47,403 nt of DNA from a virus. Both the position numbers and the translations under genes were made by a program. This document shows, piece by piece, positions 1,467-18,352 of the stretch (positions within the stretch are counted from its first letter, which is position 1; each line of letters starts with the position of its first letter). A model generated the notes under the pieces. The model had not been told where the DNA came from, searched no databases, and saw only the letters and a program-made list of their open reading frames with translations. The DNA lies in IMG/VR virus record IMGVR_UViG_3300037137_000541, positions 1-47,403 of that record. The stretch is one strand, 5' to 3'.

Positions 1467-1943
1467 ATGACTACCCAAATGAGCAAGCCGATTGTAGTTA
1501 CTGATAGCCCTCCTATCCGCGAATCTGATTCAATCACGATTGATGGCAGAATCACACGGCGGATTGCTGAGTTAGCCGAGGCTAGGGCGAAAATACTCCT
1601 AGCGATTGATACACTCCGGCCTGTAAATGGGAAGGATTATCGGCGCATAGGTGAAGCATCAAAAGAGATTGTGAAAAATGCGATTGCTCAAGCCGACTAC
1701 GTGACTGAGGGGGGGTTTTTCATCGCTTCCCCGAAATTGGAGAACACAATCTCGCTACTCCCGTGGGAAGAATTTTGTCGGGAAACACAAGGCCTTATCG
1801 AGGAATTAGACGCAATCCGCCATTTGCCAGAATTGCATGAAATTGTTCCTTTACAAAAAAGATTGCGGATTTGCCGCGAAAGGCTAAATACGCTAGTATC
1901 TCGCCGGGGGATGGTTGAGTTATCCTGTTTGAAAGTAGTATGA
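1467..1943 (+). CDS. Unknown early protein, first rightward gene
   Basis: 158 residues from ATG 1467. I chose this start because a good TATAAT box lies six bases upstream, inside any longer reading, so the upstream in-frame ATG at 1422 would not be in the transcript. The protein is mostly helical and mixed charge, with alternating hydrophobic positions over residues 20-60 (RITRRIAELAEARAKILLAI) that suggest a coiled coil. I do not recognise a family. As the first transcribed gene of the early arm it could be a host-takeover or regulatory protein, but that is inference from position only. Confidence 0.75.
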   Translation: MTTQMSKPIVVTDSPPIRESDSITIDGRITRRIAELAEARAKILLAIDTLRPVNGKDYRRIGEASKEIVKNAIAQADYVTEGGFFIASPKLENTISLLPWEEFCRETQGLIEELDAIRHLPELHEIVPLQKRLRICRERLNTLVSRRGMVELSCLKVV

Positions 1944-1971
1944 AAAACAAGTATACCCTACCTGCGCTTGA

Positions 1972-2033
1972 ACGTGCTGCCGCATTGTGCGGATGGGTTT
2001 GTTCTGCCGAGTCTAACAAGGGGAGAATGAAAA
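1972..2033 (+). promoter_or_regulatory. Repeated 5' RNA element, copy A
   Basis: A short hairpin CCGCA-TTG-TGCGG (1980-1992) is followed by a tail running from GGATGGGTTTG through TAACAAGGGGAG, then ATG 2034. The tail is almost identical to that of copy C (3243-3329), including GTTTGTTCTGC(C/T)GAGT(C/T)TAACAAG. The stem is shorter than in the other two copies. Confidence 0.6.
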
Positions 2034-2254
2034 TGATCCACCTTACACTGAGCGGGACCAATGCTGGACGCTCGTTGTGCGATTGTGATAAAGGACAAGC
2101 AAGGGCAAGAGGGGATACATTCCAGCCTTACATGTATGCTGATATTCATTTGCCTGATATCTGTCCGGCGTGCTATGCCCTTATTGTACAGGCAGAGAAT
2201 GAAGCCGATGCCGAACACCCCGACGCTGCCGATGATGCTGGCGAACCGGATTAG
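2034..2254 (+). CDS. Cys-containing small protein, unknown
   Basis: 73 residues. A longer frame opens at ATG 1940, overlapping the previous stop, but its first 30 codons would be translated from a repeated untranslated element (copy A) that stands directly before the start codons of two other genes. I therefore place the start at ATG 2034 behind GGGGAG. The protein has CDCD near residue 17 and a C-P-A-C motif near residue 46, so it may bind zinc, and it ends in an acidic Asp/Glu/Ala tail. Function unknown. Confidence 0.6.
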
Positions 2255-2333
2255 CACATTTTCTCCCCTCCCCTCTCCCATGATCCCTGCAAGGCATGGG
2301 AGGGTTTGACCGAACACTAACAAAAGGAAAGCT
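2252..2333 (+). promoter_or_regulatory. Repeated 5' RNA element, copy B
   Basis: It begins with the upstream gene's stop in TAGCACATTTTCTCCCC, followed by a stem of 8-10 pairs, CTCCCATG (2275-2282) with CATGGGAG (2295-2302). The loop contains TGCAAGG. After it come GGGTTTG, CTAACAA and AGGAAA before ATG 2334. Opening, loop and tail are shared with copy C while the stem sequence is different. Confidence 0.65.
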
Positions 2334-2585
2334 ATGTTTGACGCCGATCTTAGCGGCTGGAGTGTAACGGGTGGGGTGGCGGAACCGATGAGTATGAGCG
2401 AGCTATCCGTGTTTGATCCTAGAGTAAACGACGTTTACCGAACGGCATATGACAAACATATCAGCGAGAATGGGCCCATCGACGTAAATCGGCATCGTGG
2501 AGTACAAGTTGATGAAGCGGATAAGGCCGGTCGTCGGGCAGTACGCCGATACGCCAAGAGGATGGGAATTACACTTACGGATTAG
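2334..2585 (+). CDS. Small unknown protein
   Basis: 83 residues from ATG 2334, behind AAAGGAAAGCT. The N-terminal half is neutral to acidic; residues 55-80 are basic (KAGRRAVRRYAKRMG) and could contact nucleic acid. No family recognised. It is preceded by the repeated 5' element copy B and followed after 21 bases by the next gene. Confidence 0.7.
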   Translation: MFDADLSGWSVTGGVAEPMSMSELSVFDPRVNDVYRTAYDKHISENGPIDVNRHRGVQVDEADKAGRRAVRRYAKRMGITLTD

Positions 2586-2606
2586 CTAAACTGTAAAATC
2601 CCCTCT

Positions 2607-2999
2607 ATGAAAAACAAATGCGTTATCTGCGGCCGTGAATGGAAATCCCCCAAGCACAAGCTCTGTTGCTCTTCAGCTTGCTTCACCGAGTACCACCATG
2701 ATAAGGGGTGGATCAGCGGATACGAGTATGAAGAGAGAATCAAGCGAAGGGAAGGGAATCGTCTAGCTTGCCAGCGATACCATGATAGCGGGAATCGTCC
2801 ACCACGCGACGATAAACCCGCACCGCACAGCACGTATTGCCGCGTGTGCAAGCGCTGTTTTGCTGCCCGCACCAATGACGTAACATGCTCTTCCCCAGCC
2901 TGTCGTAGGGAGAACAAGCGAGCAAAACGACAAGAGAAGCGCTTAGGGCAAAGCAATGCCTGCCGTATGGCTCGCGGGGACGAAATAGACGATTTGTAA
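2607..2999 (+). CDS. Double zinc-finger-like protein
   Basis: 130 residues with two Cys clusters: CVICGREW followed by CCSSAC at residues 5-25, and CRVCKRC followed by CSSPAC near 84-105. Each is a CxxC pair plus a second pair, as in treble-clef or zinc-ribbon proteins. The middle and the C-terminus are strongly basic (ENKRAKRQEKR), which suggests DNA or RNA binding. No Shine-Dalgarno is visible before ATG 2607. TAAAAT at 2594-2599 ends seven bases before the ATG and could be the -10 of another leaderless start, though its -35 is poor. Confidence 0.72.
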   Translation: MKNKCVICGREWKSPKHKLCCSSACFTEYHHDKGWISGYEYEERIKRREGNRLACQRYHDSGNRPPRDDKPAPHSTYCRVCKRCFAARTNDVTCSSPACRRENKRAKRQEKRLGQSNACRMARGDEIDDL

Positions 3000-3000
3000 C

Positions 3001-3029
3001 TTGACGCTAACTGGATTGTGTGGTATATC
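3001..3029 (+). promoter_or_regulatory. Rightward sigma70-type promoter
   Basis: TTGACG (3001-3006), a 17-base spacer ending in TGTGG, and TATATC (3024-3029). The TGTGG before the -10 is the same as in the strong leftward promoters. Predicted start near 3036, leaving a leader of about 30 bases before ATG 3066. Confidence 0.65.
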
Positions 3030-3065
3030 ATTGCATCGGGGATACACTGTTGAGAGGAAAAAAGA

Positions 3066-3245
3066 ATGGAAACATACGACGTGACTTTCGAGAATGGCGA
3101 AAAGGAGCGAGTAGTGGCGTCCGATCTATCCGAGGCCGTTCAAGTGGCAATGGATGCGATAATCGTCCGCCTCAAGCTAACTAGCGAGATTAAGGTAGTT
3201 ATGGCCCTAGGAGTCGATTTAAGGGCTACGGCGTGTCGCGTCTAG
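3066..3245 (+). CDS. Small unknown protein
   Basis: 59 residues from ATG 3066, behind GAGAGGAAAAAAG. It begins METYDVTFENGEKERVVASD, which looks like a small beta strand-rich fold followed by a helix (LSEAVQVAMDAIIVRLKL). It is preceded by its own promoter at 3001-3029. The stop codon TAG is the first part of repeat element copy C. No family recognised. Confidence 0.65.
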   Translation: METYDVTFENGEKERVVASDLSEAVQVAMDAIIVRLKLTSEIKVVMALGVDLRATACRV

Positions 3246-3329
3246 CACATTTTCTCCCCCCTCCCTCATCCGCCTAACCCCGCAAGGTGCGGATGAGTTT
3301 GTTCTGCTGAGTTTAACAAGAGAGGAAAC
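3243..3329 (+). promoter_or_regulatory. Repeated 5' RNA element, copy C
   Basis: TAGCACATTTTCTCCCC as in copy B, then a perfect 9-bp stem CTCATCCGC (3265-3273) with GCGGATGAG (3289-3297). The 15-base loop contains CGCAAGG. The tail TTTGTTCTGCTGAGTTTAACAAGAGAGG matches copy A and leads to ATG 3330. Stems in B and C differ completely yet both pair, while flanks and loop are kept. Confidence 0.7.
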
Positions 3330-3536
3330 ATGGCAAGGCTTAGCTGTCCTGATTGCGAGATAATGAGCATTAACGGGCATGTCTGCCATGAGGCAGGTTG
3401 CCCGTCTAGCTGGATTGATCCATGTATGGGCGAAGGATACGAGCAGGAATGCAAATGGTGTGGCAGTTTGTTTGTGCCTAAAGATAAGGATCAAGCATTT
3501 TGCGACGAGTCTTGTGCAGAGTCCTATAACAGTTAA
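3330..3536 (+). CDS. Small zinc-ribbon protein
   Basis: 68 residues behind AGAGAGGAAAC. Cys pairs are CPDC (6-9), CHEAGC (about 19-24), CKWCG (about 42-46) and CDESC (about 58-62), so it probably binds one or two zinc ions. The last two pairs, WCGSLFVPKDKDQAFCDESC, resemble the zinc ribbons common in small phage proteins. Role unknown. Confidence 0.75.
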   Translation: MARLSCPDCEIMSINGHVCHEAGCPSSWIDPCMGEGYEQECKWCGSLFVPKDKDQAFCDESCAESYNS

Positions 3537-3545
3537 AGGAAAAAC

Positions 3546-3950
3546 ATGGCGACGAAAAAGCAATTGAAAGAGCAAGAGAGGGCGGAAGCAATCATGCAAT
3601 TACGCAAACTCCTGCGTCCGGGTAGCAAGGTCTACACCATACTCCGGTCAGTATCGGCATCGGGCATGACGCGACATATCGACTTGTATACGGTCCGCAG
3701 GGGGGGAATGGCATGTCTCACGGGCTATGCTGCCAAAGCGCTAGGCTATAGGCATGACTACAAGCGGGGTGGGCTTGTAGTGGGAGGGTGCGGTATGGAT
3801 ATGGGTTATCACGTTGTTTATTCACTTAGTCGTGCCCTATTCCCCAAAGGCTTTATCCCCGCAAAGGCGGGCAGACAAGGGCGGAATGGTACTCCCGCGA
3901 TTGAGCGGGATACCGATGGGGGATATGCTCTTAATCAATCGTGGCTCTAG
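3546..3950 (+). CDS. Conserved phage protein of unknown function
   Basis: 134 residues behind TTAAAGGAAAAAC. The stretch from ILRSVSASGMTRHIDLYTV through GYAAKALGY and GGCGMDMGYHVVYSLSRALF is a pattern I know from a small protein family widespread in phages and plasmids, always without an assigned function. The conserved Gly/Met/Asp run (VVGGCGMDMG) and the SGM(T/S)R motif are both intact. The length is typical. The N-terminal 30 residues are charged and helical. Confidence 0.8.
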   Translation: MATKKQLKEQERAEAIMQLRKLLRPGSKVYTILRSVSASGMTRHIDLYTVRRGGMACLTGYAAKALGYRHDYKRGGLVVGGCGMDMGYHVVYSLSRALFPKGFIPAKAGRQGRNGTPAIERDTDGGYALNQSWL

Positions 3951-3996: not shown

Positions 3997-4350
3997 GTGG
4001 CCTACACCAAAAAACAGCGAAGAGTGTACAACGCAGCCTATCGACTCACTCCGACAGGCCGGGCCGCCCGCGCTCGTGCTGCTACCCGTGCTGCTGTCCG
4101 ACAACGGTTGCTTTATCCCGATCAGGTGGCCGCCCATCATGCAGTCAACAACGCTATTCGTGGTGGATATCTTATTCGCTTGCCATGCGAGGTTTGCGGC
4201 GAACCGAAGAGTGAGGGTCATCATTTTCTTGGGCATGTGAAAGAACACTGGTTCGATATTCAATGGTTGTGCAAGAAGCATCATAGCGAATTACACAAAG
4301 GAGAAAACAAATGCGACTTAGCAAACGCGACAACGGGGATGGGTATGTAA
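3997..4350 (+). CDS. HNH endonuclease, GTG start
   Basis: 117 residues. The start is GTG 3997, eight to ten bases after GGAG; the open frame extends further left but overlaps the previous gene. The N-terminus is basic (YTKKQRRVYNAAYR) and the C-terminus carries an HNH/zinc motif: PCEVCG, then GHHFLG, then WLCKKHHSELHK. This matches the free-standing HNH nucleases that move between phage genomes. It is closely related to the protein at 4595-5095. Its last 40 bases overlap the next gene, and the tail after ELHK (GENKCDLANATTGMGM) is read from that gene's start region. Confidence 0.8.
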   Translation: MAYTKKQRRVYNAAYRLTPTGRAARARAATRAAVRQRLLYPDQVAAHHAVNNAIRGGYLIRLPCEVCGEPKSEGHHFLGHVKEHWFDIQWLCKKHHSELHKGENKCDLANATTGMGM

Positions 4351-4592
4351 TGTGGCTGGGTGCAAGGGATACCTACGCATGGGCAAACAAGCCTGGGGCA
4401 GTGTGGCCGTGTAGCCAATTAGCCGGGCATCGGCTTGTTGTGACAGTAGAGCGGAATGGCCTATGCGGGCTTGCCCGTGACGGGCATCAAACGGGGTCAG
4501 TGAGTGAAAGTGAGCTGATCGCAATTGTTACCGACTATTTGCCCAAAGGGTTAAGGCATCTTTGGCCTAGCTATGAAGCAGAGGCGGCATAA
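4311..4592 (+). CDS. Unknown early protein between two HNH genes
   Basis: 93 residues from ATG 4311 behind AAAGGAGAAAACAA, overlapping the end of the preceding HNH gene. The fold is probably mixed beta/alpha, with WLGARDTYAW near the start and a helical C-terminus. No family recognised. Its Shine-Dalgarno lies inside the HNH coding sequence, so the two genes were probably joined by invasion of the HNH gene. Confidence 0.65.
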   Translation: MRLSKRDNGDGYVMWLGARDTYAWANKPGAVWPCSQLAGHRLVVTVERNGLCGLARDGHQTGSVSESELIAIVTDYLPKGLRHLWPSYEAEAA

Positions 4593-4594
4593 TC

Positions 4595-5095
4595 ATGCCG
4601 TTTAAGTCAAAAGAAAAGCGAGCGGCATACTCTAGGGCGTATGTACAAACCCCTGGGGGTAAGGCAGCGATTGCTCGCTACGCGACTTCTGCTAAGGGTA
4701 GAGCAACCAAAGCCCGAAACAGCCGTTCTCCCGCAAGGAAAGCATATCGGGCATTGCCCTCGTCTAAAGCGTGGTGGAAAGCGTATCGCCAAACTGTATC
4801 GGGCAAAAGGGCATGTGCTGTTGGACAGGCTAAGTATCGCCGGTCGAAAAAGGGAAAGGCATACTTAAAGGCCGGACGGAAAGCATACCACGCGCGTCAC
4901 CCGGATTATCAGCGCGTCCACAATGCTTTCAACCAAAAGATTCGCTCTGGTCGTATTGCCCGGCAGCCCTGTGAGGTATGCGGGAGTATACCGAGTCAGG
5001 GTCATCATCCTGATTATTCAAAGCCCTTGGAAGTGCAATGGCTCTGCCGAAAGCACCATCAGGAATTGCACTCGATTACAGTAAAGGAACATTAA
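4595..5095 (+). CDS. HNH endonuclease
   Basis: 166 residues. A long Lys/Arg/Ala-rich N-terminus (residues 1-110, with KSKEKRAAYSRAY and several SK/GK repeats) should bind DNA. The C-terminus has the HNH/zinc motif PCEVCG, GHHPDYSKPLEV and WLCRKHHQELH. It is a paralogue of 3997-4350. Its final codons are part of a 28-base direct repeat (5065-5092) that recurs at 5528-5555 and supplies the ribosome site for the following gene. Confidence 0.82.
   Translation: MPFKSKEKRAAYSRAYVQTPGGKAAIARYATSAKGRATKARNSRSPARKAYRALPSSKAWWKAYRQTVSGKRACAVGQAKYRRSKKGKAYLKAGRKAYHARHPDYQRVHNAFNQKIRSGRIARQPCEVCGSIPSQGHHPDYSKPLEVQWLCRKHHQELHSITVKEH
5065..5092 (+). repeat. 28-bp direct repeat, copy 1
   Basis: Perfectly repeated at 5528-5555. 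It includes the end of the HNH gene and the AAAGGAACAT ribosome site. The two genes between the copies (5096-5308 and 5305-5547) look like a segment inserted or duplicated by recombination at this sequence. Confidence 0.85.
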
Positions 5096-5308: not shown

Positions 5309-5547
5309 GCAAGGTAACAATGACGGAAGCATTGGCTCGTGACATCGCCGCCGATGCTGCTAATGCACAAATGCGGGCAGCGGGGCGAAAGAAATGGGAT
5401 CGGGACGACTACAACCTAGCGGTGCGGGAGTATGTCAAACTTTGGCCCGCCGAGGAAAGAATGCCCGCTATGGACAAAGCGGAAATGCTACATCGCATCG
5501 GGGAGAACCCGTCTGCCCACCGCCTGCATTGCACTCGATTACAGTAA
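5305..5547 (+). CDS. Unknown protein with RIGEN motif, altered C-terminus
   Basis: 80 residues. Residues 55-68 (AMDKAEMLHRIGEN) share the ML(H/Q)RIGEN motif with the protein at 6735-7022, and a decayed third copy lies at 6679-6717. The last seven residues (LHCTRLQ) are read from the second copy of the 28-bp repeat, whose first copy is the 3' end of the HNH gene. The original C-terminus was therefore probably replaced by recombination. Function unknown. Confidence 0.65.
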   Translation: MSKVTMTEALARDIAADAANAQMRAAGRKKWDRDDYNLAVREYVKLWPAEERMPAMDKAEMLHRIGENPSAHRLHCTRLQ

Positions 5548-5555
5548 AGGAACAT
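5528..5555 (+). repeat. 28-bp direct repeat, copy 2
   Basis: Second copy of 5065-5092. Here it forms the end of one gene in a different reading frame and the ribosome site of the next gene (ATG 5558). Confidence 0.85.
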
Positions 5556-5557
5556 AC

Positions 5558-5917
5558 ATGTTAGTAGAGGATCAATTATTATTGGGTGAATCGGGTAATC
5601 TCCCCGCACCAAAACTATTTCGGTGCGATAGGCCAGACGCCCCCAGTCTAGTGACACACGCTGAACTGAGAGCGTTTTTTGCCGGAGCGGATATTCTTCA
5701 TCCGTGTAATCCGTCGCTGGGGGATTACCTGTGTAGAGAGCGCGATCTGGAGGAAAAAGACATGCCCTCAACCCCCGGACGAGTTGTACTCGTCTGCCAA
5801 TTAAAGAGGAATGGGTCCGGGTTTATCCAAGTACGATGGGGTGAAGCATTCACGCGAGGATCAATTCTCGCGGAATATCACTTTGCTGCGAGTGAAACAA
5901 TCGAGAGCGGTAACTAA
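5558..5917 (+). CDS. Unknown early protein
   Basis: 119 residues from ATG 5558, which follows the AAAGGAACATAC ribosome site of the repeat; the in-frame sequence upstream overlaps another gene. No membrane segment. Scattered single Cys residues do not form a zinc site. The C-terminal half (VVLVCQLKRNGSGFIQVRWGE) looks like a small beta-rich domain. The stop overlaps the next start (TAATG). Function unknown. Confidence 0.65.
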   Translation: MLVEDQLLLGESGNLPAPKLFRCDRPDAPSLVTHAELRAFFAGADILHPCNPSLGDYLCRERDLEEKDMPSTPGRVVLVCQLKRNGSGFIQVRWGEAFTRGSILAEYHFAASETIESGN

Positions 5918-9934: not shown

Positions 9935-10147
9935 ATGCTGGGTTTGAATGCAATCAGACGTTTACGCGGAATGTACCCCCGAGAGGGGCCGTGGGTCTTG
10001 ACTCAACGTATCTGGGGGGGTTGTTTTCGGTCTGGTTCCTGGGCAGAGCGACTTGCTACTCTTGTCTCGATGGAGCGATCCCCGTACAGCATTTATTCCG
10101 TCATCCGGCGGTACGATGCTCGGCGAAAGCAGCGTAAGGCTGCGTAG
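9935..10147 (+). CDS. Small basic protein, unknown
   Basis: 70 residues behind AAGGAGACACGAC. Net charge is strongly positive (many Arg and a KQRK tail), which suggests nucleic-acid binding. No recognised motif. It is followed by 168 bases without a clear gene, apart from a weak 36-codon frame (10205-10315) that ends in a TGATG overlap with the next gene. Confidence 0.6.
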   Translation: MLGLNAIRRLRGMYPREGPWVLTQRIWGGCFRSGSWAERLATLVSMERSPYSIYSVIRRYDARRKQRKAA

Positions 10148-10315
10148 GACTCGCTGAGCCACAGTTTCCCATGGGTGACAATCCCGTTCACATTAACCGG
10201 GTATGGAGTTGCTTGCTTCGTTTGCCGGTAATGGCGGTAGACCAGTGAGTGATGACCGTGTTACCCGTGGGATACAGTTGCTTAGTCTTTTTTTGATTTT
10301 ATCGGAGTTATCGTG

Positions 10316-18283: not shown

Positions 18284-18352
18284 CGGCCGGTAGCTCAACT
18301 GGATAGAGCACGCTTAAGTGATGAGATGCGGGTTCAAGCCCCGTCCGGCCCA
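18284..18352 (+). tRNA. tRNA-like element, truncated anticodon arm
   Basis: Acceptor CGGCCGG (18284-18290) pairs with CCGGCCC (18345-18351) at six of seven positions; the first pair is C-C. The TA bases, D-arm GCTC/GAGC with loop AACTGGATA, and T-arm GCGGG-TTCAAGC-CCCGT are all standard. Between the D and T arms there are only 18 bases, where 22-23 are expected, and no 5-bp anticodon stem can be formed; the best is a 3-bp stem around TTAA. It is therefore either a decayed tRNA gene or a tRNA mimic. No CCA is encoded. The primase-helicase ATG is ten bases downstream. Confidence 0.55.

Follow-up and report, generated by a model that had tools for sequence, protein, structure and literature searches.

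Three related phage contigs carry, at junctions between early genes, what is, as judged from their sequences, a real, short and structured repeat family, here called B/C after two of its copies. Comparison of the copies supports the retention of a paired hairpin while its sequence changes. The role that we favor, at a probability of about 0.4, is that of weak terminator-like attenuators that double as gene-exchange joints in the early operon of uncultured phages. This mechanism is proposed tentatively, because only three genomes carry the family.

Source DNA and early region

The window, i.e. the whole 47,403 bases of IMG/VR record IMGVR_UViG_3300037137_000541, comes from an uncultured virus. 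Its genes match family A DNA polymerase, a PD-(D/E)XK nuclease, a Sak4-like annealing protein, primase and endonuclease VII; its terminase matches are weak. None of the 1551 phage records that match the polymerase reaches 60% identity to it (best 29.6% among the matches listed), and the window gave no DNA match in the phage collection. The plus-strand early region begins near 1422 and contains many tiny ORFs (Table 1). The protein encoded at 3546-3950 has three distant relatives in the genome collection, while the 75-aa ORF at 2027-2254 had no match in PHROG or Pfam. A sigma-70-like promoter candidate (TTGACG, 17 nt, TATATC) was seen by eye at 3001-3029, ahead of gene 3066; it is also visible in the relative L028 and weaker in the relative L008, and was absent from the promoter scan.

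Table 1. Positions of element parts, neighboring ORFs and comparable hairpins
Feature	Contig	Positions	Strand	Remarks
A, right half of element (tail and ribosome site)	window	1980-2026	+	joined to unrelated coding sequence; 83% identity to C
B, stop TAG and pyrimidine tract	window	2252-2272	+	16/18 pyrimidines, no G
B, hairpin	window	2273-2304	+	10 bp stem, loop ATCCCTGCAAGG
B, tail TTTG...TAACAA	window	2305-2333	+	ribosome site AAAGGAAA
C, stop TAG and pyrimidine tract	window	3243-3264	+	17/19 pyrimidines, no G
C, hairpin	window	3265-3297	+	9 bp stem, loop CTAACCCCGCAAGGT
C, tail TTTGTTCT...TTTAACAA	window	3298-3329	+	ribosome site GAGAGGAAA
Small early ORF, 75 aa	window	2027-2254	+	on segment 1994-2278, which is replaced in L028
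Small early ORF, 83 aa	window	2334-2585	+	directly after B; L008 relative instead follows a C-like element
Small early ORF, 59 aa	window	3066-3245	+	C begins with its stop codon
Small early ORF, 68 aa	window	3330-3536	+	after C; weak NinG-like match, under Pfam cut-off
L28_C	L028			C with one changed flank base
L28_D	L028	7999-8081		after L028 relative of gene 4311-4592
L8_1	L008	1085-1173		89% like C over 53 nt
L8_2	L008	1375-1469		without GCAAGG loop
L8_3	L008	2701-2790		without GCAAGG; spotted by eye
Intergenic hairpins	L020	470-495, 1005-1029, 1471-1499, 1956-1982, 2253-2280		mostly GGACYC...GGGTCY; inner stems change, outer pairs shared

Anatomy of the element

Both B (2252-2336) and C (3243-3332) extend from the stop codon of the upstream small gene to the start codon of the next. 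The gap at B runs from the TAG at 2252, which closes the ORF 1940-2254, to the ATG at 2334, and that at C from the TAG at 3243, which closes the ORF 3066-3245, to the ATG at 3330. The preliminary description had placed three copies right before start codons; this holds for B and C, while A comprises only the right half of an element. The order of parts in B and C is the stop, a G-free pyrimidine tract, a hairpin, TTTG, a variable middle, TAACAA, a purine-rich ribosome site and the start codon.

That B and C share a left flank, a GCAAGG loop and a tail was confirmed, the only two occurrences of the flank TAGCACATTTTCTCCCC in the window being those at 2252 and 3243 (0.12 occurrences expected with up to three mismatches). 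Both hairpins are of 9-10 bp. Their stems, described earlier as different yet fully paired, are indeed completely different in sequence, CTCTCCCATG/CATGGGAGGG in B and CTCATCCGC/GCGGATGAG in C, each fully paired, and both beat dinucleotide shuffles: the observed best stem was reached in 6 of 1000 for B and in 1 of 1000 for C. Folding energy of the whole element compared with shuffles was unremarkable for B (z -0.58) and modest for C (z -1.99).

Copies in related contigs

The family was found in three genomes only: the window and two other IMG/VR contigs that share its early region, IMGVR_UViG_3300032143_000795 (L028, also L039) and IMGVR_UViG_3300031772_003865 (L008). These relatives add a near-identical C and four further copies. 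The GCAAGG loop is kept in five of the seven copies while the stems change. L8_1 is flanked by genes other than those around C, and it is followed by a relative (45% identity) of the gene that stands after B. At the junction after the 4311-4592 gene, an element is present in both L028 and L008, with unrelated stems; in the window this junction is without an element, and an HNH-type endonuclease ORF (4595-5095) begins there.

Two further features of this region were observed. The HNH endonuclease ORF has at its 3' end the first copy of an exact 28-nt direct repeat of the window (5065-5092 and 5528-5555); the second copy lies before the gene at 5558. In L028 the neighboring segments stand in swapped order. 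A repetitive small gene with GCTGCC/GCCCGTGCTGCG-type repeats lies behind L8_2 in L008, after 1467.

Sequence searches recovered few other candidates. The left-flank 17-mer had no further stretches in IMG/VR, the tail 23-mer had one, on the L028/L039 contig, and a loop-tail pattern retrieved 20 stretches, with true copies only on that same contig. Searching IMG/VR with the genes adjoining the elements recovered only the L028 and L008 contigs. A DNA search of nine records with a polymerase relative, several of them short and not covering the early region, found C in one and B in none. Element-like matches in a scan of phage loci for GCAA-loop stems, which left out seven overlapping loci and is blind to GCAA-free loops such as that of L8_3, were confined to the window, L008 and L028. 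With Rfam 15, nothing was found at the elements when the whole window was searched at the gathering threshold, and positions 1900-3400 gave no match at E up to 1. The only match elsewhere was to the tRNA model (18284-18352, 39.1 bits), inside the called primase ORF; ARAGORN found no tRNA in the window.

Conservation of base pairing

The same-stem copies C of the window (W_C) and L28_C were counted once in the shuffle and arm-permutation tests, the T and pyrimidine counts and the hand alignment. Arms of 8 bp were used for L8_3 in the folding, shuffle and arm-permutation tests and of 12 bp in the terminator score, T counts and hand alignment; no count includes A or the truncated B of L028.

The best stem was reached by only 1-7 of 1000 dinucleotide shuffles for five of the six distinct copies. 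The exception was L28_D, whose best uninterrupted stem does not stand out from shuffles (677/1000) because a C-T mismatch interrupts it. When the six distinct stems were aligned by hand over nine pairs from the loop, 53 of 54 cells were standard pairs, with two-sided change at all nine positions, a count that describes pairing rather than proves it because the arms were picked for pairing. Similarly, the native arm pairing was the best of the 720 pairings of six arms, a result that is partly built in by the choice of arms. Both multi-copy alignments hold the stems out of register because loop lengths differ.

The homologous stems of C and L8_1 differ at pair 8 (T-A to C-G) and pair 4 (C-G to T-G). 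Pair 8 is the one two-sided change between clearly homologous stems in the three genomes, and a gapped alignment of C and L8_1 shows its left-arm side as a one-base deletion. The proposal of a conserved structure with changed sequence was therefore upheld in part: pairing is kept across the copies of two relatives, and C/L8_1 supplies the only homologous two-sided change.

Among 65 same-strand gaps of 60-100 nt on other contigs, 24 contained a stem of similar strength, against 0 of 65 after shuffling. This baseline relies on a crude gene caller, includes near-identical contigs (L031/L041/L043; L038/L049) and draws some contigs from a GCAA-favoring pattern, the listed L038 and L049 hairpins being that match.

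Element A and cassette exchange

A resembles C at 83% identity over 48 nt, and the tail reported as common to the two was verified as a 32-base pattern with exactly two occurrences in the window, at 1989 and 3289, and none in shuffles. A is without the pyrimidine tract and the left arm, its stem is only 5 bp, and its folding z is -0.29. The left part of A is coding sequence of another ORF in L028. The window and L028 agree fully as far as 1993, midway through the apparent A stem. Beyond this point the ORF starting at 1940 continues coding in L028, and in the window it enters the right half of an element. Judged by this comparison, A is a recombination joint and not a full copy, because the close relative has uninterrupted coding sequence there.

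The window and L028 match again from 2279, a position within the left arm of B. The right half of B in L028 directly follows a stop codon, without the pyrimidine tract or a full left arm. Window positions 1994-2278 (285 nt: half an element, gene 2027-2254, half an element) are replaced by 157 nt in L028. Since identity ends in A and resumes in B, this would be one cassette difference with both joints within element sequence. Alignment of the genomes thus shows the elements to be located at apparent gene-exchange boundaries, with neighboring genes exchanged through joints inside elements.

A possible role in transcription attenuation

Of the 24 positions formed by the first four nucleotides after each stem, 18 are T; T makes up 30 of 156 positions in the remaining tail sequence and 22% of the early region. 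This enrichment has the polarity of an intrinsic terminator. Terminator scores were negative in all seven copies (-5.6 to -50.7), with C (-5.6) and L8_3 (-5.7) nearest the threshold. Ten reference hairpins from other phage contigs gave five scores of +14.8 to +45.1 and five of -3.6 to -24.9. The hairpin is G+C-rich, as in an intrinsic terminator, and the U tract falls short of that needed for a positive score. B and C were absent from the list of a simple terminator scan of the window covering loops of 3-8 only. A CCCC-GCAA-GGGG loop type followed by TTTT is present in clear terminators of other phages. The reading as a clear intrinsic terminator was rejected, all seven copies lying below the standard score threshold. 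The suggested role in termination or antitermination accordingly keeps the fit of the T-rich stretch after the stem and loses the expectation of a standard terminator.

If B/C elements are attenuators, the hairpin and T stretch in the RNA would act as a weak, leaky terminator or pause. Weak termination would lower read-through into the next small gene and would leave the upstream message with a protected 3' end. Selection would act on pairing and not on letters, so that recombining elements would be free to swap arms and genes provided that the stem is restored. Dense arrays of tiny early genes could then obtain individual expression levels from one promoter, and cassette exchange could preserve regulation, with only base pairing needing restoration.

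Alternative explanations

The cassette data can also be read without any regulatory role, the element being a short shared sequence that moves with genes and the repeats a by-product of exchange via the annealing recombinase. The breaks at 1993 and 2279 between segments of unequal length, the occurrence of C-like L8_1 in L008 between genes unlike the neighbors of C, and the encoded Sak4-like protein and endonuclease VII all agree with this reading, which would make the region an example in which phage mosaicism at short shared sequences can be read. It is nevertheless unlikely to be the whole explanation, as it leaves unexplained the pairing of all the unrelated stems, the T stretch and the fixed stop-to-start position; a single exchange was resolved at both ends, and other rearrangements of the region are without an element. 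Somewhat less likely is an RNA processing or stabilizing hairpin, at which RNase would cleave or which would shield mRNA ends. At 8-12 bp the stems are short for RNase III, which counts against processing, whereas a structure that is kept with free sequence, one per gene junction, is in its favor. Excerpts of one report likewise describe phage intergenic hairpins with stabilizing or possible processing roles (PMC8948821).

Translational coupling, in which the pyrimidine tract would keep the downstream gene's ribosome site masked until a ribosome at the upstream stop frees it, is about as doubtful as the processing hairpin. The tract begins at the stop codon and is rich in pyrimidines (83 of 95 nt over the copies, with one G), and in B and L8_1 it is paired to the ribosome site in the fold of lowest energy. 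However, complementarity between tract and ribosome site was no better for own pairs (-45.2, rank 362 of 720) than for the permuted mean (-45.6), and forcing open the 15 nt after the stop increased exposure of the ribosome site in four of the seven copies, decreased it in two and left one unchanged. The tract was thus rejected as a specific switch, and with it the translation control proposed earlier in this form, the pairing being not copy-specific and the exposure effect inconsistent. Binding of a phage protein that reads loop and tail in an antitermination-like manner would account for a GCAAGG loop kept in most copies while stems vary, but L8_2 and L8_3 do not have this loop and no Rfam match was found even at the relaxed E value; this explanation seems very improbable.

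A broader proposal is that phage RNA hairpins at gene junctions form a general class evolving by arm swapping: pairing and flanks would be kept and stem letters replaced wholesale by recombination, giving each junction a private stem that perhaps prevents mutual recombination or mispairing of copies while marking cassette ends. The unrelated uncultured phage contig L020 (IMGVR_UViG_3300003690_000033) is cited for such a general class since it has five such junctions with flanks of their own. Its five intergenic hairpins share flanks while the stems change, and four of the five junctions end in TAACATG at the start codon. We regard the existence of this class as improbable, if less so than protein binding.

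Comparison with known phage repeats

The closest parallels, as described in portions of the cited papers, are the start-site repeats SAS/ESAS of Cluster K mycobacteriophages (PMC3203893) and Cluster EF Microbacterium phages (PMC7302621), whose role is unexplained. Like the B/C family, these repeats immediately precede the starts of several non-structural genes, with almost all in the same orientation and with the genes concerned varying from phage to phage. The Cluster K ESAS also consists of inverted repeats with a variable spacer (PMC3203893). SAS differs in its fixed 13-bp core at the ribosome site, neither the Cluster K nor the Cluster EF core, as given in those portions, being found in B/C tails (PMC3203893, PMC7302621), and the Cluster K ESAS in its consensus 17-bp arms, whereas B/C arms differ between copies, leaving stem sequence free. 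Inverted repeats of 17-18 bp in Cluster O (PMC4351075) and Cluster EG (PMC7302621) are likewise many, short and often intergenic; those of Cluster EG lie 14-22 bp before starts, similar to the pre-start position of B/C (PMC7302621). The arms are described as invariant in Cluster O (PMC4351075), whereas those of B/C vary with pairing kept.

Intrinsic terminators located between genes of phages (for example the L038, L046 and L012 hairpins) similarly combine a G+C stem, in some a GCAA loop, and T after the stem; in the B/C family the T stretch is too weak and the scores are below threshold. Boundary sequences at mosaic joints, an idea found in part of PMC3029335, also involve a short shared sequence between modules at exchange, but the shared part in B/C is a hairpin with a variable stem, and one event was resolved. 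A limited selection of literature on related phage intergenic elements contained, in the portions covered, nothing describing the B/C-type element. As intergenic hairpins are common in phages and SAS/ESAS are published, the B/C family is viewed as a new example of a known repeat type. Whether the elements are attenuators or joints only, they would add a free-stem variant to the unexplained SAS/ESAS-type repeats.

A separate structured stretch was noted at 10145-10310 of the window, a very stable intergenic fold (-66.9 kcal/mol, z -5.55, equaled by none of 200 shuffles). The phage collection gave no match to it. Its long stem is followed by seven consecutive T, marking the stretch as a candidate phage small RNA or palindromic insertion. 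Only its last part is kept in L008, as a 53-nt match.
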